A stretch of DNA of 62,253 bases. Origin: Arsukibacterium sp. UBA3155. GTDB lineage: Bacteria; Pseudomonadota; Gammaproteobacteria; Enterobacterales; Alteromonadaceae. The stretch lies in contig DEYP01000020.1 of assembly GCA_002364615.1 (NCBI GenBank), positions 1 to 62,253 on the forward strand, written 5' to 3'. The notes beneath the pieces were generated by a model. That model did not search any database, was not told the origin of the DNA, and was given only the letters and a program-made list of their open reading frames with translations. Made by a program: the position numbers and the translations under genes. Positions 45,103 to 51,824 of the stretch are shown piece by piece (position 1 is the stretch's first letter; every line of letters starts with the position of its first letter).

Positions 45103-47775
45103 ATGCGACGTTTTTTAAAAGCAGTGCTCATTTTAGTGATCGGCTTACCGGTAATAGCAGCCGCAGCTTATTGGTATTTGCAGCAAAGTATTGCAGCAGC
45201 GGGAATTAGTCAGCTGCAATTGGATTTCAACCGATTGACCCTTCACAGCGTCTCTTTTCACCGGGTCCGGTTTCAGCTGCAACAGAGCGACGCACAGCAT
45301 CAGTTTGATTTACAGAATGTTGAACTCCGGTGGCTGTGGCCACAGGCTTTTAAACCACAACTGCAATATATCGGGTCAGGCCCGGGTAAAATTATCGTTG
45401 GTAAACCAAGCAAGCCTGCAACCGCAAATGATGCCAGTCCCTTGCTTGTCCCTGGCCAGTGGCAATTACCAGATTGGTTGCCAGAGCATATTAAGCTTGC
45501 CGATACTCAGCTTGTGCTGCCCTGCCCGGCCGGCCAGTGCCCGCTGCAGTTAACGGGTTATTTGCGCTACCACGCCAGTCAGGCTCAGCTAATCTCCGGG
45601 GAAACGAATACCACCGAAGATAACGCTGCACCACCTTATTGGCAAAGCCAGTTTAGCATTAGCGAGTTTCAACCACTCGAGCCTGGCCAGGCCGAGCTGC
45701 TTATCGACTTGCGATATCAGCCGACACCGCAACCGTCACTGGAATTAACGGTACAGCAAGCGCAGCAACTTGGGTTTAGTTTAAAACAGCATATTAACCC
45801 CGACAGCCGGCAGGCCGAGACTGAGCTGGTGTTAGCGCTTTCCCCGCCCTCACCGACTAACCAGCGTTTATTTCAACAATGGGGAGTAACTTTACCCGAA
45901 GCCTGGCTGGCTCAGTTCCAGCAACCGGTGCAACTGTATAGCAAGCTGCAGTGGCAACTGCCGGCGGATGGTAATCTGTCCAACCTGTTAAGCAGTCATG
46001 ATCTTAATGGTATTGTCGTTGCCCGGGTACCCGATCCATTCTATTTACCCAAACTCGGCTTAATCCAGGGCGAGTTAACGGCAGATTTACGACTTAAAAA
46101 TCAAATAGTAGAGCATTGGCAGCTCAATGCCAGCGCGGTGCTCTCTGAGCTTGAATTACCCGAAGCCCTGACGGCCATGGGCATTCACCTAAGCCCAATC
46201 AACGTTGTACTTAGCGCTAAAGCAAATGAAAAGCCAGATTTGAAGGCGCTACCCTTGCAACTCAACCTGAACAGTAGTGGTGAAAATCGTTTTACCCTGG
46301 AAAGTGAGCTGACCCTTGATATCAGCGACAACCCGGGACTGACGATTAAAAAGGCAGTAGTAAGCGCAGCGATTGCAAAACTGGATCTTGCCAACGAACA
46401 GAGCAGCACACCTAAAGTTAAGCTTAGAGACATTGTGCTAAGTAGTGCGCTCAGTGGCGACTGGACACCAGAGAACTGGCAACTGACCCTGGCCAGCGAC
46501 ACTCATATCCGCACTGGCGTCTCGTCAGATCTGCTGCAGATAGGCAGTCTCGACCTCACGGCAAGTAACAGCACTATCACAGGTGACAACAAGGGTGTCA
46601 CGGCCATAAACACCGATGTTAAGCTCAGTGCGAATAGCGTAAGCCACTCGGCACTGCTTAGTAAACACTGGCAATGGCAAGGCACTGTCCGTCTGGAGGC
46701 AGAAACCCTGGCGCTAGACAATGCCCAGCTGAGCAACGATGCCGGGCTGATGCTCAGCCATCAGCTGAGTTTTCAGCCAGAAAACAAAGCGATAGCGCTG
46801 CGCTGGCAGCTAGCAGAGATATTTTTGCTGGCAGGAACCCCTTTAGCAACCTCATTTAACAACTGGCCGCCGCTTCTTAGCGTAAATCGGGGCAAAATTA
46901 CCGCGTCTGGCGAGGCTAATTATCGTGGTAGCGCATTTACCAGCGCCAGTCAGCTACAATTTGGCGATGTCGCCGGTATTTATGACCGAAGCCTGTTCAG
47001 TGGTTTAAATGGCATAGTCGACGTCGCGGTTAGCAGTGACACACTGCAACTAAATACCAGTAATCTTACCCTGAACCGGCTGAATCATGGCATTGAAATG
47101 GGTCCGCTTACCGTCAAAGCCTCTGCCACTATGCCACTGCTGGCCCCCGGGCAACTGCAGATTGATTTGCAGCAAATTGAAATGCAGATCATGCAGGGTA
47201 TGGTTAGTGTTAACGAGCAGCAACTGGATTTCAGCCAGCCAGAGAACCAGCTTATCCTGCACTTGCGGCAGATTGATTTAGCCAGCCTGCTGCAGCAGCA
47301 CCCATCCAGTGACTTAACAGGTAACGGTAAACTATCTGGTAAAGTCCCCATTACCATCAATGCCAAAGGGGTAAGTGTTAGCGACGGCAATATTGCCGCT
47401 GAAGCACCGGGTGGCCGCTTGCAGTACCAATCAGCGAGTGCCGGTGCTATGGCGAAAACCAACAGTAATATGAAACTGGTGTTAGATGCGCTGGAGAATT
47501 TTCAATACACCGTGCTTAGCAGCACGATCAGTTACGACACCAGTGGCAAACTCAATCTGGGTTTAAGATTACAGGGCAGCAATCCCAACCTGCAGCAGGG
47601 CCGCGCCATTAATTTAAATGTTAATGTGGAAGAAGACTTGCCTGCCCTGATTACCAGTTTGCAGTTAACCAATAAATTAAATGAAGTCATCACAAAACGA
47701 GTACAACAATATCTTAAACAGCAACAGTATCTTAAACAACATAAGGCGGCTGCCGCCAACGGAGAAAAACCATGA
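45103..47775 (+). CDS. ydbH: AsmA-like intermembrane phospholipid transport protein YdbH
   Basis: 890 residues (E. coli 879). One N-terminal membrane anchor (about 5-26, AVLILVIGLPVIAAAAYWYL) followed by a long beta-rich periplasmic groove. The C-terminal part (LDFSQPENQLILHLRQIDLASLL, GNGKLSGKVPITINAKG, GRLQYQ) matches YdbH. With TamB and YhdP it carries phospholipids toward the outer membrane in E. coli. It overlaps ynbE by ATGA, giving the conserved ydbH-ynbE-ydbL operon. Confidence 0.92.
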   Translation: MRRFLKAVLILVIGLPVIAAAAYWYLQQSIAAAGISQLQLDFNRLTLHSVSFHRVRFQLQQSDAQHQFDLQNVELRWLWPQAFKPQLQYIGSGPGKIIVGKPSKPATANDASPLLVPGQWQLPDWLPEHIKLADTQLVLPCPAGQCPLQLTGYLRYHASQAQLISGETNTTEDNAAPPYWQSQFSISEFQPLEPGQAELLIDLRYQPTPQPSLELTVQQAQQLGFSLKQHINPDSRQAETELVLALSPPSPTNQRLFQQWGVTLPEAWLAQFQQPVQLYSKLQWQLPADGNLSNLLSSHDLNGIVVARVPDPFYLPKLGLIQGELTADLRLKNQIVEHWQLNASAVLSELELPEALTAMGIHLSPINVVLSAKANEKPDLKALPLQLNLNSSGENRFTLESELTLDISDNPGLTIKKAVVSAAIAKLDLANEQSSTPKVKLRDIVLSSALSGDWTPENWQLTLASDTHIRTGVSSDLLQIGSLDLTASNSTITGDNKGVTAINTDVKLSANSVSHSALLSKHWQWQGTVRLEAETLALDNAQLSNDAGLMLSHQLSFQPENKAIALRWQLAEIFLLAGTPLATSFNNWPPLLSVNRGKITASGEANYRGSAFTSASQLQFGDVAGIYDRSLFSGLNGIVDVAVSSDTLQLNTSNLTLNRLNHGIEMGPLTVKASATMPLLAPGQLQIDLQQIEMQIMQGMVSVNEQQLDFSQPENQLILHLRQIDLASLLQQHPSSDLTGNGKLSGKVPITINAKGVSVSDGNIAAEAPGGRLQYQSASAGAMAKTNSNMKLVLDALENFQYTVLSSTISYDTSGKLNLGLRLQGSNPNLQQGRAINLNVNVEEDLPALITSLQLTNKLNEVITKRVQQYLKQQQYLKQHKAAAANGEKP

Positions 47776-47960
47776 GACGATTAGCCACAGTGCTGGCAAC
47801 AGCTTGCGTACTGTTGCTCGCCTGTACGCCCAAAGTTCAGGTAGAGCTACCTAACGAGCCGATAAATATTAATCTGAACGTAAAAATTCAGCATGAAATT
47901 TATATTAAGGTAGATAAACAACTTGATGAATTATTCAGTGAAAATAGCGGCTTATTCTAA
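47772..47960 (+). CDS. ynbE: Outer-membrane lipoprotein YnbE
   Basis: A 62-residue lipoprotein: lipobox LLAC with the lipidated C18, then the strongly conserved PINININVKIQHEIYIKVDKQLDEL-type stretch (here EPININLNVKIQHEIYIKVD) and a C-terminal FSENSGLF matching E. coli YnbE. In E. coli it extends the YdbH groove by beta-strand pairing to the outer membrane. Four-base overlap with ydbH. Confidence 0.94.
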   Translation: MRRLATVLATACVLLLACTPKVQVELPNEPININLNVKIQHEIYIKVDKQLDELFSENSGLF

Positions 47961-47970
47961 GGAGACGGTA

Positions 47971-48348
47971 ATGAACAGTAATATTAATAATCCCAAAAAA
48001 CGCTTTGGAAAAGCCCGTCTGTTGCTCGCCTCCCTGGTATTGGCAGTAAGCTTGCCGGTGCTGGCGATGAATTTGCAACAAGCAATGGCCGCGTTAAGCC
48101 AGGCGAAAGTTCAGGGCCTGGTGGGGGAGCAACCTAATGGATATCTGGGCGTAGTAGAAAGCTCGGCAGATACTGAAGCAGTGGTAAAACTGATTAACGA
48201 TGCCAGACGGGCAGAATACGTCAGAATGGCGAAGCAAAATGATATTGCCGTCGCCGATGTTGAAGCTATTGCTGGTCAGAAAGCCATTGAACGAACTGCC
48301 AGCGGCCATTTTATTCTGATCGACGGTAAGTGGCTGCAGAAGCGTTAG
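47971..48348 (+). CDS. ydbL: YdbL family periplasmic protein (DUF1318)
   Basis: A 125-residue exported protein (signal peptide to about residue 32, LPVLA before MNLQQ). The DUF1318 pattern AKVQGLVGEQPNGYLGVV, INDARRAEYVRMAKQND and the ending GHFILIDGKWLQK matches YdbL, a chaperone that keeps YnbE from multimerising wrongly. GGAGA precedes the ATG at 47971, 10 bases after ynbE; an upstream in-frame start lies inside ynbE. Confidence 0.93.
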   Translation: MNSNINNPKKRFGKARLLLASLVLAVSLPVLAMNLQQAMAALSQAKVQGLVGEQPNGYLGVVESSADTEAVVKLINDARRAEYVRMAKQNDIAVADVEAIAGQKAIERTASGHFILIDGKWLQKR

Positions 48349-48473: not shown

Positions 48474-50156
48474 ATGAATGCGATATTTTTGATGTTGATG
48501 GGTCTTGGCGCTATGGCGCTGGGCTATTTTGTCTACGCGAAGTTTATCTGCGAGAAAATCTTTAAAGTCGATCCACACTTTCGCACGCCTGCTCATGAAA
48601 TGCAGGATGGCATTGATTATGTGCCCACCAATAAATACATTCTGTGGGGCCATCACTTTACTTCTGTTGCTGGAGCTGCACCAATAATTGGTCCCGCCAT
48701 TGCCGTTATCTGGGGTTGGGTGCCGGCGTTTTTATGGGTGGTATTTGGTACCATATTCTTTGCTGGTGTGCATGATGCCGGTGCCATCTGGGCCAGTGCC
48801 CGCAATAAAGCAAAATCGATTGGCTCATTAACCGGCGATATTGTCGGCAACCGGGCCCGCATTATTTTTATGATTGTGATATTCCTGGTGCTGCTGATGG
48901 TTAACGCCGTGTTTGCAGTGGTAATATCCAGTCAGCTGATTAAATTCCCCAGTGCCACCCTGCCAGTTTGGGGCGCCATAGTGGTCGCACTTATTATCGG
49001 TCAGCTTATTTACCGCAAACTGATTAGCTTACTTCTCGTCACTATTATTGGTGTCGTGGCGTTATATGCAATGATTTACGCAGGCCCATTGTTGCCTTTA
49101 GCACTACCGGAAACACTGGGACCCCTTAGTGACAATCAGAGCTGGATTATCCTACTATTTGCCTATGCCGCCATCGCCTCGCTATTACCGGTGTGGATGT
49201 TATTGCAACCCCGCGATTACATTAACGGCATTCAACTTTTTGTCGGCTTAATCTTACTTTATGGTGCGGTACTTATTTCAGGGCCGGAATTAGTCGCACC
49301 GGCGTTTAATACTAATGTGCCAGAGGGCACGCCTTCGATCATCCCGCTGTTATTTGTAACGATTGCCTGTGGTGCTATTTCTGGCTTTCATGGCTTAGTG
49401 TCCAGCGGTACTACCTCTAAACAATTAGATAAAGAGCCGGATGTGCGTTTTGTCGGCTACTTTGGTGCTGTCGGTGAGGGCTCGTTGGCATTGGCTGCCA
49501 TCATTGCCGCCTGTGCCGGCTTTGCCAGCCTTGCTGACTGGCAAGCAATATACTCCAGCTTTGGTCAGGGCGGTGTGTCGGCCTTTATAAATGGCGGCGC
49601 CAATATTTTGCAGGCCGGTATCGGCATGGATACCGTGCTGTCACAAACGCTGCTGACCGTAATGGTGGTGTTATTTGCCGGTACCACCATGGATACCGGC
49701 TTGCGCCTGCAACGCTATATCTTCCAGGAATGGGGAGCCATTTATAATATCAGCTGGATGCAAAAAGCGGCTCCCGCTACCTTTTTAGCCGTCGCAAGCT
49801 GTTTATTTCTGGCATTTGGCGCCGGTGGTGATGGTGCCGGTGGCATGCTTATCTGGCCATTATTTGGCACCACTAACCAATTGCTGGCTGGCTTAACCTT
49901 GCTTGTTATTACGGTAATGTTGGTTAAAAAACGCCGGCCAATGTGGTACACCCTGGCACCCCTTATCTTTTTGCTGTTCATGACCACCCTGGCATTGCTT
50001 ACCCAGTTAAAAACCTTCTATGACAAAGCAGACTGGTTTTTGTTTGGACTGGACTTAGTTGTGCTGGCTGCGGCTATTTTAGTATCACTGGAATGTGCCG
50101 CCACGTTAACCAAACAAATCAAAACCAACAAAGCTAATCCGGTCAGTGACTCGTGA
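48474..50156 (+). CDS. cstA: CstA-family carbon starvation / pyruvate transporter, short form
   Basis: A 560-residue inner-membrane transporter with about 15 hydrophobic helices. CstA-family landmarks: VPTNKYILWGHHFTSVAGAAPIIGPAIAVIWGW, GVHDAGAIWASARNKAKSIG, and GFHGLVSSGTTSKQLDKEPDVRFVGYFGAVGEGSLAL. It is shorter than E. coli CstA (701). In E. coli CstA and BtsT import pyruvate and need a small cytosolic partner (YbdD/YjiX). Here the stop overlaps the start of a different small protein ending in Cys-Cys, then an ArsA-type ATPase follows. No strong ribosome site is seen before the ATG. Confidence 0.92.
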   Translation: MNAIFLMLMGLGAMALGYFVYAKFICEKIFKVDPHFRTPAHEMQDGIDYVPTNKYILWGHHFTSVAGAAPIIGPAIAVIWGWVPAFLWVVFGTIFFAGVHDAGAIWASARNKAKSIGSLTGDIVGNRARIIFMIVIFLVLLMVNAVFAVVISSQLIKFPSATLPVWGAIVVALIIGQLIYRKLISLLLVTIIGVVALYAMIYAGPLLPLALPETLGPLSDNQSWIILLFAYAAIASLLPVWMLLQPRDYINGIQLFVGLILLYGAVLISGPELVAPAFNTNVPEGTPSIIPLLFVTIACGAISGFHGLVSSGTTSKQLDKEPDVRFVGYFGAVGEGSLALAAIIAACAGFASLADWQAIYSSFGQGGVSAFINGGANILQAGIGMDTVLSQTLLTVMVVLFAGTTMDTGLRLQRYIFQEWGAIYNISWMQKAAPATFLAVASCLFLAFGAGGDGAGGMLIWPLFGTTNQLLAGLTLLVITVMLVKKRRPMWYTLAPLIFLLFMTTLALLTQLKTFYDKADWFLFGLDLVVLAAAILVSLECAATLTKQIKTNKANPVSDS

Positions 50157-50428
50157 TAAAACTCGATACACTAAAGGCCTGGTATCGCCAGGCCAGTTTT
50201 TATGCCGAAGAAGCGTATAACGCCCCTTATCGCAGCGCTATTGCCCGTGCTAAGCGAGAACAGGACGATTTGTTTATGTTGCTAATCTTCTCTGAAATGA
50301 TGGGAGTCCCCAACCCAGCCAGTTATTACACCCTGGAACTGCAACCGTTACTGATGGAGCGATTTCACGACTGGCATACCCGGATAGGCATGGAGCACTC
50401 ACCGCTGGATAATATTAAATGCTGTTAA
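50153..50428 (+). CDS. Small cory-CC-star-type protein ending in Cys-Cys
   Basis: A 91-residue helical, hydrophilic protein: YRQASFYAEEAYNAPYRSAIARAKREQDDLFMLLIFSEMMGVPNPASYYTLELQP, ending in NIKCC. This is the pattern named cory-CC-star in protein family collections; biochemistry is unknown. The GTG start overlaps the cstA stop by four bases and its own last ten bases overlap the ATPase gene, so translation is coupled on both sides. The terminal Cys-Cys recalls YbdD and YjiX, the small partners of CstA and BtsT in E. coli, though the rest of the protein is different. Confidence 0.85.
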   Translation: MIKLDTLKAWYRQASFYAEEAYNAPYRSAIARAKREQDDLFMLLIFSEMMGVPNPASYYTLELQPLLMERFHDWHTRIGMEHSPLDNIKCC

Positions 50429-51423
50429 CCGATAAACGGTTGTTATTGATTGGGGGTAAAGGCGGTGTCGGTAAAACCACCACCAGCTCTGCGCTGGCGT
50501 TGTTAGCCACCAACCGCGGTAAAAAAGTGCTGTTGGTCTCTACCGATCCGGCGCATAGCCTCAGTGATGCCTTTAACCGGCCCATTGGCGATACCATCAC
50601 CCGCTTAGCCCCTGATCTGGATGGGCTGGAGCTGGATCCGGATCGTGAAGTTGCCCTGCACTTAGCTAAAGTCAGCGCGCAGTTAAAGCGCTTTACCCGA
50701 CCAGAAATGTACCGTGAAATTGAACGCCAAATGCGCCTGACCGCGCTGTCGCCGGGGGCCCAGGAAGCGGCAATGCTCGAACGCATGTCTAATGTCATTG
50801 AACTGGGATTACGTGACTACGATCTGGTCATTTTTGATACCGCCCCTACCGGTCATACCTTACGATTACTAAGCTTGCCTGAGGCGATGGCCGCCTGGAC
50901 TCAGGGCTTACTTAATGCCAACAAGCGCTCTGAAAAGCTTGGCGAAGTTTTGGCGCATTTAACGCCTAAAGGCGGTCGCGATATCCCCAACCCACTGGCA
51001 AATCCTAATGAGCACGCTACTGACGGCATGGATGACCGCAACAAAGCCATTACCGAAACCCTGCTGGCCCGCCAGCGTTTATTGCAGCGCACCCGTGAAG
51101 TACTGACCGATAAACAGCAAAGCGCGCTGTTATTTGTACTGACCCCGGAAAAGCTGCCAATTCTGGAAACCGGTCGTGCCGTGCAAAGCCTAATGCAGGA
51201 AAACCTGCCATTGGCGGGTCTGGTGGTAAACCGCATTTTGCCAGACCACGCCGATGGTGATTTTCTGGCGGCTCGTCGCAGCCAGGAAAAGCAGCATTTA
51301 GCGCAGATAGAGCAAGATTTTGCCAAATTGACCCGGTACAAAGTGCCACTGCAAGCCACTGATATTCAGGGGCTTACTGCATTGCAGCATATGGCAGGCT
51401 TATTGGAGCAAGCAGGTTTATAG
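50419..51423 (+). CDS. ArsA/Get3-type ATPase
   Basis: A 334-residue P-loop ATPase. Deviant Walker A GGKGGVGKTTTSSALA at about 12-27, VLLVSTDPAHSLSDAF, switch II DTAPTGHTLRLLSLPEA and a late VVNRILP match ArsA/Get3. There is no cysteine anywhere in the protein, so neither the arsenite site of ArsA nor the zinc CxxC of Get3 can exist. No arsB, arsR or arsD is nearby. Position after cstA and the Cys-Cys protein suggests it serves those proteins, for example as a targeting or assembly factor; that is inference. Confidence 0.9.
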   Translation: MLLTDKRLLLIGGKGGVGKTTTSSALALLATNRGKKVLLVSTDPAHSLSDAFNRPIGDTITRLAPDLDGLELDPDREVALHLAKVSAQLKRFTRPEMYREIERQMRLTALSPGAQEAAMLERMSNVIELGLRDYDLVIFDTAPTGHTLRLLSLPEAMAAWTQGLLNANKRSEKLGEVLAHLTPKGGRDIPNPLANPNEHATDGMDDRNKAITETLLARQRLLQRTREVLTDKQQSALLFVLTPEKLPILETGRAVQSLMQENLPLAGLVVNRILPDHADGDFLAARRSQEKQHLAQIEQDFAKLTRYKVPLQATDIQGLTALQHMAGLLEQAGL

Positions 51424-51479: not shown

Positions 51480-51824
51480 ATGAAAACCCGCTATCTGCTG
51501 CTTACCTTTTACCTTAGCTGCTCTGGCAGCAGCCTGGCCGCTTATGCCACCAAAGCGCCGCAAGCAAGTGACACAGATAGCGCCGCTTTTAAAACTGCCA
51601 TCATGGACAGCTATTTGCAACGTTGTGTTGAGGTGCTTAACAACAAAGGCTATAGCAGCGACGCCATTAAAGCCGAATGCAAATGTGAGCTGGATCAGAT
51701 TGATCAGCACTTTGCTGTTTTTCAGCAAATGCTTGCGGCTGATAAAACAGCCAACCTGCAGCAGATTAATGCGTTAAAAAAACAATTACTACAGTGTAAA
51801 ACGACGCCGCAGACCACGCAGTAA
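51480..51824 (+). CDS. Small exported cysteine-containing protein
   Basis: A 114-residue protein with a signal peptide of about 20 residues (LLLTFYLSCSGSSLA). The mature helical part holds four cysteines: QRCVEVL, AECKCELD (two, CxC) and LLQCK. Such spacing suggests disulfides or metal binding, but I do not recognise a family. It lies 56 bases after the ATPase gene on the same strand, so it may belong to the cstA operon. Convergent with DUF3667, four bases apart. Confidence 0.72.
   Translation: MKTRYLLLTFYLSCSGSSLAAYATKAPQASDTDSAAFKTAIMDSYLQRCVEVLNNKGYSSDAIKAECKCELDQIDQHFAVFQQMLAADKTANLQQINALKKQLLQCKTTPQTTQ

Follow-up and report, generated by a model that had tools for sequence, protein, structure and literature searches.

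Three overlapping genes in a 62,253-nt stretch of Arsukibacterium sp. UBA3155 DNA (contig DEYP01000020.1; hereafter the window, meaning the whole stretch) encode a short CstA-type permease, a small protein of the cory-CC-star family (cory) that ends in Cys-Cys, and a single-domain ArsA/Get3-type ATPase. Gene content, order and coupling recur at related loci, every cory there ends in Cys-Cys, and the ATPase motifs are conserved. Judging from sequence, we see about an even chance that the products form a three-part CstA uptake module that has a Cys-tailed subunit and is switched, assembled or set by an ATPase of its own. A physical complex, its substrate, the thiol function of the tail and the switch role of the ATPase are the parts that we infer.

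In the proposed module the short permease would carry a small carboxylate, pyruvate being the first guess. Cory would be a dedicated soluble subunit, with the same job in the short clade of CstA as the unrelated YbdD has in the E. coli clade, and its C-terminal tail would offer the permease a terminal Cys-Cys. The ATPase, a putative Get3-like nucleotide switch, would dock cory and, with ATP, turn the permease on, assemble it or set its activity, rather than serve as sole motor.

Relatives were collected by scanning species genomes with a six-sequence cory alignment, which gave at least 574; the best 80, whose titles name Pseudomonadota, were kept. Three plasmid loci (Cytobacillus, Pseudochrobactrum and Paracoccus) and 25 loci from further genomes bring the set to 108, window excluded; three further Pseudochrobactrum plasmid records (H2-H4) and further hits in the window's family stand outside it. 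No pair of these loci has the same cory together with the same ATPase. An earlier note on this DNA, made from the letters alone, had proposed that the three families form one functional module and should co-occur, and so they do: an ATPase open reading frame (ORF) is present at 107/108 cory loci (L200 is largely masked) and CstA at 106/108. The exceptions are L155 (genome G171), which lacks the ATPase, L065, without CstA in the 2.85 kb upstream, and L076, at a contig edge. The order is cory-ATPase-CstA in L041, and no CstA-cory or cory-ATPase fusion occurred among the loci examined for it. The pairing extends beyond Gammaproteobacteria to plasmids of two Alphaproteobacteria and of one Bacillota.

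Among 274 Gammaproteobacteria genomes, a single-domain ArsA scoring at least 150 bits lies beside cory in five and elsewhere only once (G134). Other full-length ArsA-type ATPases in these genomes are two-domain proteins, found in seven (two P-loops were checked in 6/7); one genome, G249, has both a single-domain ATPase beside cory and a two-domain ArsA. In the window's genome the same ATPase search showed no full ArsA besides the one next to cory. Cory occurs in 11/118 genomes of the window's family, one of them a contig-edge fragment below cut-off, and the module is patchy, since 2/4 listed genomes of the window's genus have cory. Of 14 control genomes in the cory search, Haloferax volcanii matched, below cut-off.

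The overlaps of 4 and 10 bases that the earlier note had described are read directly from the sequence (Table 1). Among relatives, cory and the ATPase gene overlap at 34/107 loci and are separated by 0-100 bp at 58/107; for CstA and cory the counts are 35/106 and 49/106. Start codons were picked by script, so these counts are approximate, and three of the 35 CstA/cory overlaps (L041, L018, L198) are not real but arise from gene order or from the start chosen. The Cytobacillus plasmid locus has an additional 95-aa (amino acid) hypothetical gene between cstA and cory (L113:4190-4477).

The window's cory is a clear member of NCBIfam cory-CC-star (NF041419; 135.1 bits against a cut-off of 80, profile positions 3-80 of 80). 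No Pfam family matched it in a Pfam profile scan, and no function is given in what was seen of the NF041419 entry. Its only two Cys are the terminal ones. The Cys-Cys C-terminus is found at all 108 related loci; 99 of these proteins have exactly two Cys and nine have three. Arg or Lys directly precedes Cys-Cys in 87/108 and is not invariant, and a Cys-TGA end in place of Cys-Cys was seen at none of the 108. By comparison, three of the window's 656 stop-to-stop frames of at least 40 codons end in Cys-Cys, cory's own among them. We ruled out that the ending is an accident of the overlapping ATG of the ATPase gene, because all 108 loci keep it, including those where the ATPase start does not overlap.

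An AlphaFold model of cory has helices at residues 4-49, 55-59 and 64-77 and lacks secondary structure beyond residue 77; confidence (predicted local distance difference test, pLDDT) averages 76.8, being 73 over residues 81-90 and 52 for residue 91. This model suggests that the tail is flexible. Foldseek found no fold relatives of the model (best E 4.1). No cory among the 108 shows a clear transmembrane stretch: mean hydropathy, averaged across 19 residues, stays below 1.6 in all of them.

Partner choice follows the CstA clade: cory goes with short CstA and YbdD with long CstA. In the 274 genomes, cory was found in six, YbdD (PF04328) in 22 and CstA in 42. All 22 YbdD genomes hold a long CstA, which lies within the ybdD flank in 20 (not in L098 and L101), and all six cory genomes hold a short one. 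Long-type CstA fragments at contig edges, with no YbdD, occur in G013, G070 and G200, and other CstA genomes of this set have a lone, fragmentary or more distant CstA. More widely, 35/35 cory genomes searched have a short CstA, and nine of these hold another, more distant CstA as well. In a 57-row CstA tree built by a quick method, the labels cory, YbdD and none found need two changes, the minimum possible; support is full for the YbdD group and 77% for the cory group, in which the window's CstA falls.

Mutual exclusion with YbdD, which the earlier note had put forward as a check, holds in every genome searched for both: none has cory and YbdD together among the 274 Gammaproteobacteria or among 118 genomes of the window's family (YbdD is present in 2/118), and YbdD is absent from 50/50 cory genomes, taken from 50 of the 80 scan loci. 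At the class rate 0/50 would arise by chance with a probability of about 0.015, assuming independent genomes, which they are not.

The earlier note's view that the small protein is unrelated to YbdD and YjiX agrees with our comparisons, which detected no homology. Profile scans of cory gave no match to PF04328 or to KCU-star NF033934 (E. coli YbdD itself scores 70 bits there, under the cut-off of 85). We considered cory as a remote YbdD homologue, as an F..R helix before the tail is visible by eye in both; this was not supported by hhalign, whose alignment was limited to the four final columns; the cory profiles used are shallow (Neff, the effective number of sequences, 1.7-2.3). Since the profiles are so shallow, a remote kinship may still exist. 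The shared terminal Cys-Cys, often after Arg or Lys, is all that hhalign sees in common. In one YbdD-family protein (L111, genome G007) the end is Cys-Pro-Cys instead of Cys-Cys.

Because two families without detectable homology share the Cys-Cys end and the partner CstA, the tail most likely acts on CstA. The tail is, by analogy, probably a working thiol serving CstA, because YbdD relatives that end in Cys-selenocysteine (Cys-Sec) are published. Statements taken here and below from PMC2963123, PMC7730263, PMC5847655, PMC4607533 and PMC2770081 hold for the excerpts of these papers at hand. The C-terminal selenocysteine follows Cys in DUF466 (YbdD) proteins of Helicobacter hepaticus, H. cinaedi and Campylobacter lari, and is taken by its authors as a sign of redox activity (PMC4607533); the same end of the YbdD family appears in the KCU-star row of PMC13188914.

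The window's ATPase scores 269.2 bits against TIGR00345 (GET3/ArsA/TRC40; cut-off 135) and 149.3 bits against TIGR04291, the equivalog of arsenical pump ATPases with two domains and metalloid-binding Cys, far under its cut-off of 650; it has one domain and no Cys. The P-loop, STDPAH, DTAPxGHT and Asn271 are conserved, with every residue present in at least 97% of 106 cory-linked ATPases, that of the window among them. On a tree of 44 rows the cory-linked ATPases form one group (74%), apart from two-domain ArsA (91%). The nearest solved chains are ARSA1 5zme, 3zq6 and 3ug6; the last two, its closest single-domain solved relatives, were deposited as arsenical pump-driving ATPases, and we take them to be archaeal Get3 proteins. 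The CxxC of Get3 is a zinc site; that of 3zq6 (SDCEFCNARR) aligns to ADGDFLAARR of the window, with both Cys replaced. The earlier note had stressed a Cys-Cys-ending protein beside a Cys-free ATPase. This is right for the window, but among related ATPases only 53/107 are Cys-free and the other 54 have one to three Cys; no column of the cory-linked alignment has a conserved Cys (none above 11/106). Several ATPases of G171's relatives (L202, L204, L206) start with a His-rich stretch.

The window's CstA has 560 aa against 701 aa in E. coli. It scores 464.7 bits with PF02554 (cut-off 27) and 242.3 bits with NF011590, the E. coli-type pyruvate/proton symporter equivalog, whose cut-off is 1188. Cys299 of the permease was considered as a partner of the Cys tail: it is kept in 91/91 cory-linked CstA (over 400 aa, window included) and 24/24 YbdD-linked CstA. 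It does not discriminate, because 10/13 CstA without a partner also have it.

Table 1. Coordinates, in the window, of the three genes and of the sites discussed
Feature	Position	Strand	Basis
cstA, short CstA-type permease, 560 aa	48474..50156	+	PF02554, 6.4e-139
Codon of CstA Cys299, in TIACGAISGFHGLVSSGTT	49368..49370	+	Conserved in CstA alignment
cstA/cory 4-nt overlap, GTGA	50153..50156	+	
cory, cory-CC-star small protein, 91 aa, GTG start	50153..50428	+	NF041419, 5.9e-40
cory C-terminal tail, residues 78-91, no secondary structure in model	50384..50425	+	AlphaFold model
Terminal Cys-Cys codons TGC TGT of cory	50420..50425	+	Cys-Cys end in 108/108 related loci
cory/ATPase 10-nt overlap, ATGCTGTTAA	50419..50428	+	
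Single-domain ArsA/Get3-type ATPase, 334 aa, no Cys	50419..51423	+	TIGR00345; PF02374, 1.5e-73
P-loop GGKGGVGKT, residues 12-20 of ATPase	50452..50478	+	Conserved in alignment

Several observations weigh against the proposed module. The scan loci examined are the 80 nearest among at least 574 relatives, a literature search found no experiments on any cory system, and the AlphaFold model of cory is of moderate confidence (predicted template modelling score, pTM, 0.42). A short CstA of similar score occurs without cory in three genomes (G236, G121, G116), and Cys299 persists in those 10 partnerless permeases. Support for the cory group is below the usual mark on both the CstA tree (77%) and the ATPase tree (74%), and some long branches are flagged. 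On the side of YbdD, an adjacent YjiA-like gene is missing at 15/20 loci and, within flanks of up to 1.5 kb, at all 22 class loci (both searched with E. coli YjiA as only query), and cstA supplied by itself on a plasmid brought uptake back in an E. coli mutant, whose ybdD state is not given in the excerpt at hand (PMC7730263). Lastly, G171 has cory and CstA without any ATPase. Its tail, FPEAGVCC, could be read as lost ATPase contact in a natural ATPase-free variant, a reading that we rejected: the 16 other cory genomes found in its order all have the ATPase downstream of cory (L200 largely masked), and 14 of these belong to its family and all share the tail. G171 is thus one exception, a recent loss or an assembly fault.

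An ATPase that is the motor, energizing CstA as ArsA does ArsB with cory as coupling subunit, would make the system a primary active importer (PMC2963123). The near-invariant pairing and the conserved catalytic motifs are in its favour, as is a published co-evolution argument (PMC2963123), and many host names hint at salty or alkaline places, where proton-coupled uptake would be weak. But in E. coli the proton gradient drives CstA (PMC7730263) and no ArsA gene adjoins cstA, which argues, by analogy, against the ATPase as an obligatory energy source, and G171 retains CstA and cory without it. We therefore hold the ATPase more likely to be a switch or assembly factor than the only motor, and rate the motor as unlikely.

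A Get3-like assembly or targeting factor that chaperones or inserts CstA or cory, dispensable once the transporter is made, would fit the closest single-domain solved relatives, 3zq6 and 3ug6. We nevertheless consider it unlikely: cory, lacking any clear transmembrane stretch, is an improbable tail-anchored client, the window's ATPase has residues other than Cys at the CxxC positions of 3zq6, and the long-type CstA at E. coli cstA has no such adjacent factor.

It is improbable, in our estimate, that the Cys-Cys tail binds a metal delivered by the ATPase, as with metallochaperone NTPases. YjiA, encoded beside btsT-yjiX, does belong to the COG0523 putative metal chaperones (PMC2770081), but the window-type ATPase has no conserved Cys, and the Cys-Sec ends of some YbdD analogues point to thiol or redox chemistry (PMC4607533). 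That the genes are co-transcribed while their products act separately is very improbable given how widely the pairing is kept, over three bacterial groups and on plasmids.

An extension of the proposed module is doubtful at present: CstA permeases may have recruited, at least twice independently, an unrelated mini-subunit in which the terminal Cys-Cys or Cys-Sec is a working thiol pair, along with a SIMIBI NTPase (ArsA/Get3-type in the window, YjiA-type at E. coli btsT) that would control the tail's state and thereby switch the permease. The window-type ATPase and YjiA are presumably both of the SIMIBI class. If such twofold recruitment took place, selenium-using hosts would be expected to have cory proteins with a C-terminal selenocysteine.

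The earlier note's remark that no arsenic genes are near is borne out by the neighbours: profile scans of ten and of three of them found no ars family. Directly upstream of cstA (45103-48348) stand in a row genes for a YdbH-like protein (Pfam: intermembrane phospholipid transport), a YnbE-like lipoprotein and a DUF1318 protein. Downstream of the ATPase come a short ORF (51480-51824), with a signal-like start, several Cys and no family above cut-off, and then a DUF3667 gene. The 'ArsA' annotation here is not to be taken as arsenic resistance.

What the Cys-tailed partners of CstA-family pyruvate transporters do has been called unknown even in E. coli (PMC5847655). That two families without detectable homology end alike, and that each keeps to one CstA clade, suggests that the tail itself matters, and its role could be tested by swapping or trimming it. 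The locus also bears on the idea, proposed in 2010, that a carbon transporter can be under the control of an ArsA-type ATPase.

The trio as a gene association has been known since then, and the window is another instance of a kind that is not new. Castillo and Saier (2010, PMC2963123) listed 26 CstA-ArsA associations, 24 of them with a small protein, CstX; they argued for co-evolution, proposed that CstX couples CstA to ATP hydrolysis by ArsA, and noted that the arsenical Cys are absent from single-domain ArsA proteins. Their cluster 18, with seven members, includes ATPases of Idiomarina, Pseudomonas stutzeri, Psychrobacter and Alcanivorax, and all four checkable ones adjoin CstA and CstX. Those operons resemble the window in having the same three genes, a single-domain ATPase of ~330 aa, a small protein of ~90 aa and no ars genes. 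We tentatively equate CstX with cory by size, place and genera, not by sequence comparison; CstX of archaeal cluster 14 is called a one-transmembrane protein (PMC2963123), whereas cory has no such stretch, and the excerpt of that paper at hand has no mention of a Cys-Cys end for CstX. In the literature searched, with most subscription papers and preprint servers outside its coverage, PMC2963123 is the only paper naming both CstX and CstA, searches that paired CstA or carbon starvation with ArsA, anion-transporting ATPase or Get3 returned it or nothing, and the name cory-CC-star was not found. What is new here is that every cory at the 108 loci ends in Cys-Cys, that the small partner goes with the CstA clade, that YbdD is missing from the searched cory genomes, and that an ATPase-free variant was rejected.

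With the ArsA-ArsB arsenite pump the window shares the ATPase family, but its ATPase is single-domain and without conserved Cys, its permease is of another family and no ars genes are near. With Get3/TRC40 it shares a single-domain ATPase and the family motifs, but not the CxxC residues.

In E. coli, YbdD is needed for pyruvate uptake by CstA, a ybdD deletion resembling a cstA deletion (PMC5847655), and this CstA is proton-driven and pyruvate-specific (PMC7730263); the earlier note had claimed such a need for both E. coli transporters, which stands for CstA and YbdD but, for BtsT and YjiX, was not found in the literature at hand. At btsT-yjiX, yjiA, for a P-loop NTPase, starts 10 bp on (L217:2910-6280, E. 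coli K-12). An adjacent YjiA was rejected as a general trait of YbdD loci: a YjiA-like gene adjoins 5/20 (20 taken from 30 places), all five in one family. One cory locus has a partial YjiA-like match at its edge, ~4.6 kb from cory (L160:32-427; 34% over 132 aa). The E. coli systems differ from the window in their long CstA clade, in a small protein without detectable homology to cory, and in an NTPase that is a GTPase of another family and present only at btsT. What CstA-YbdD and BtsT-YjiX(-YjiA) have in common with the window is the gene of a CstA-family permease and, after it, that of a small protein with a Cys-Cys end; at btsT-yjiX, as in the window trio, the gene of a P-loop NTPase adjoins.

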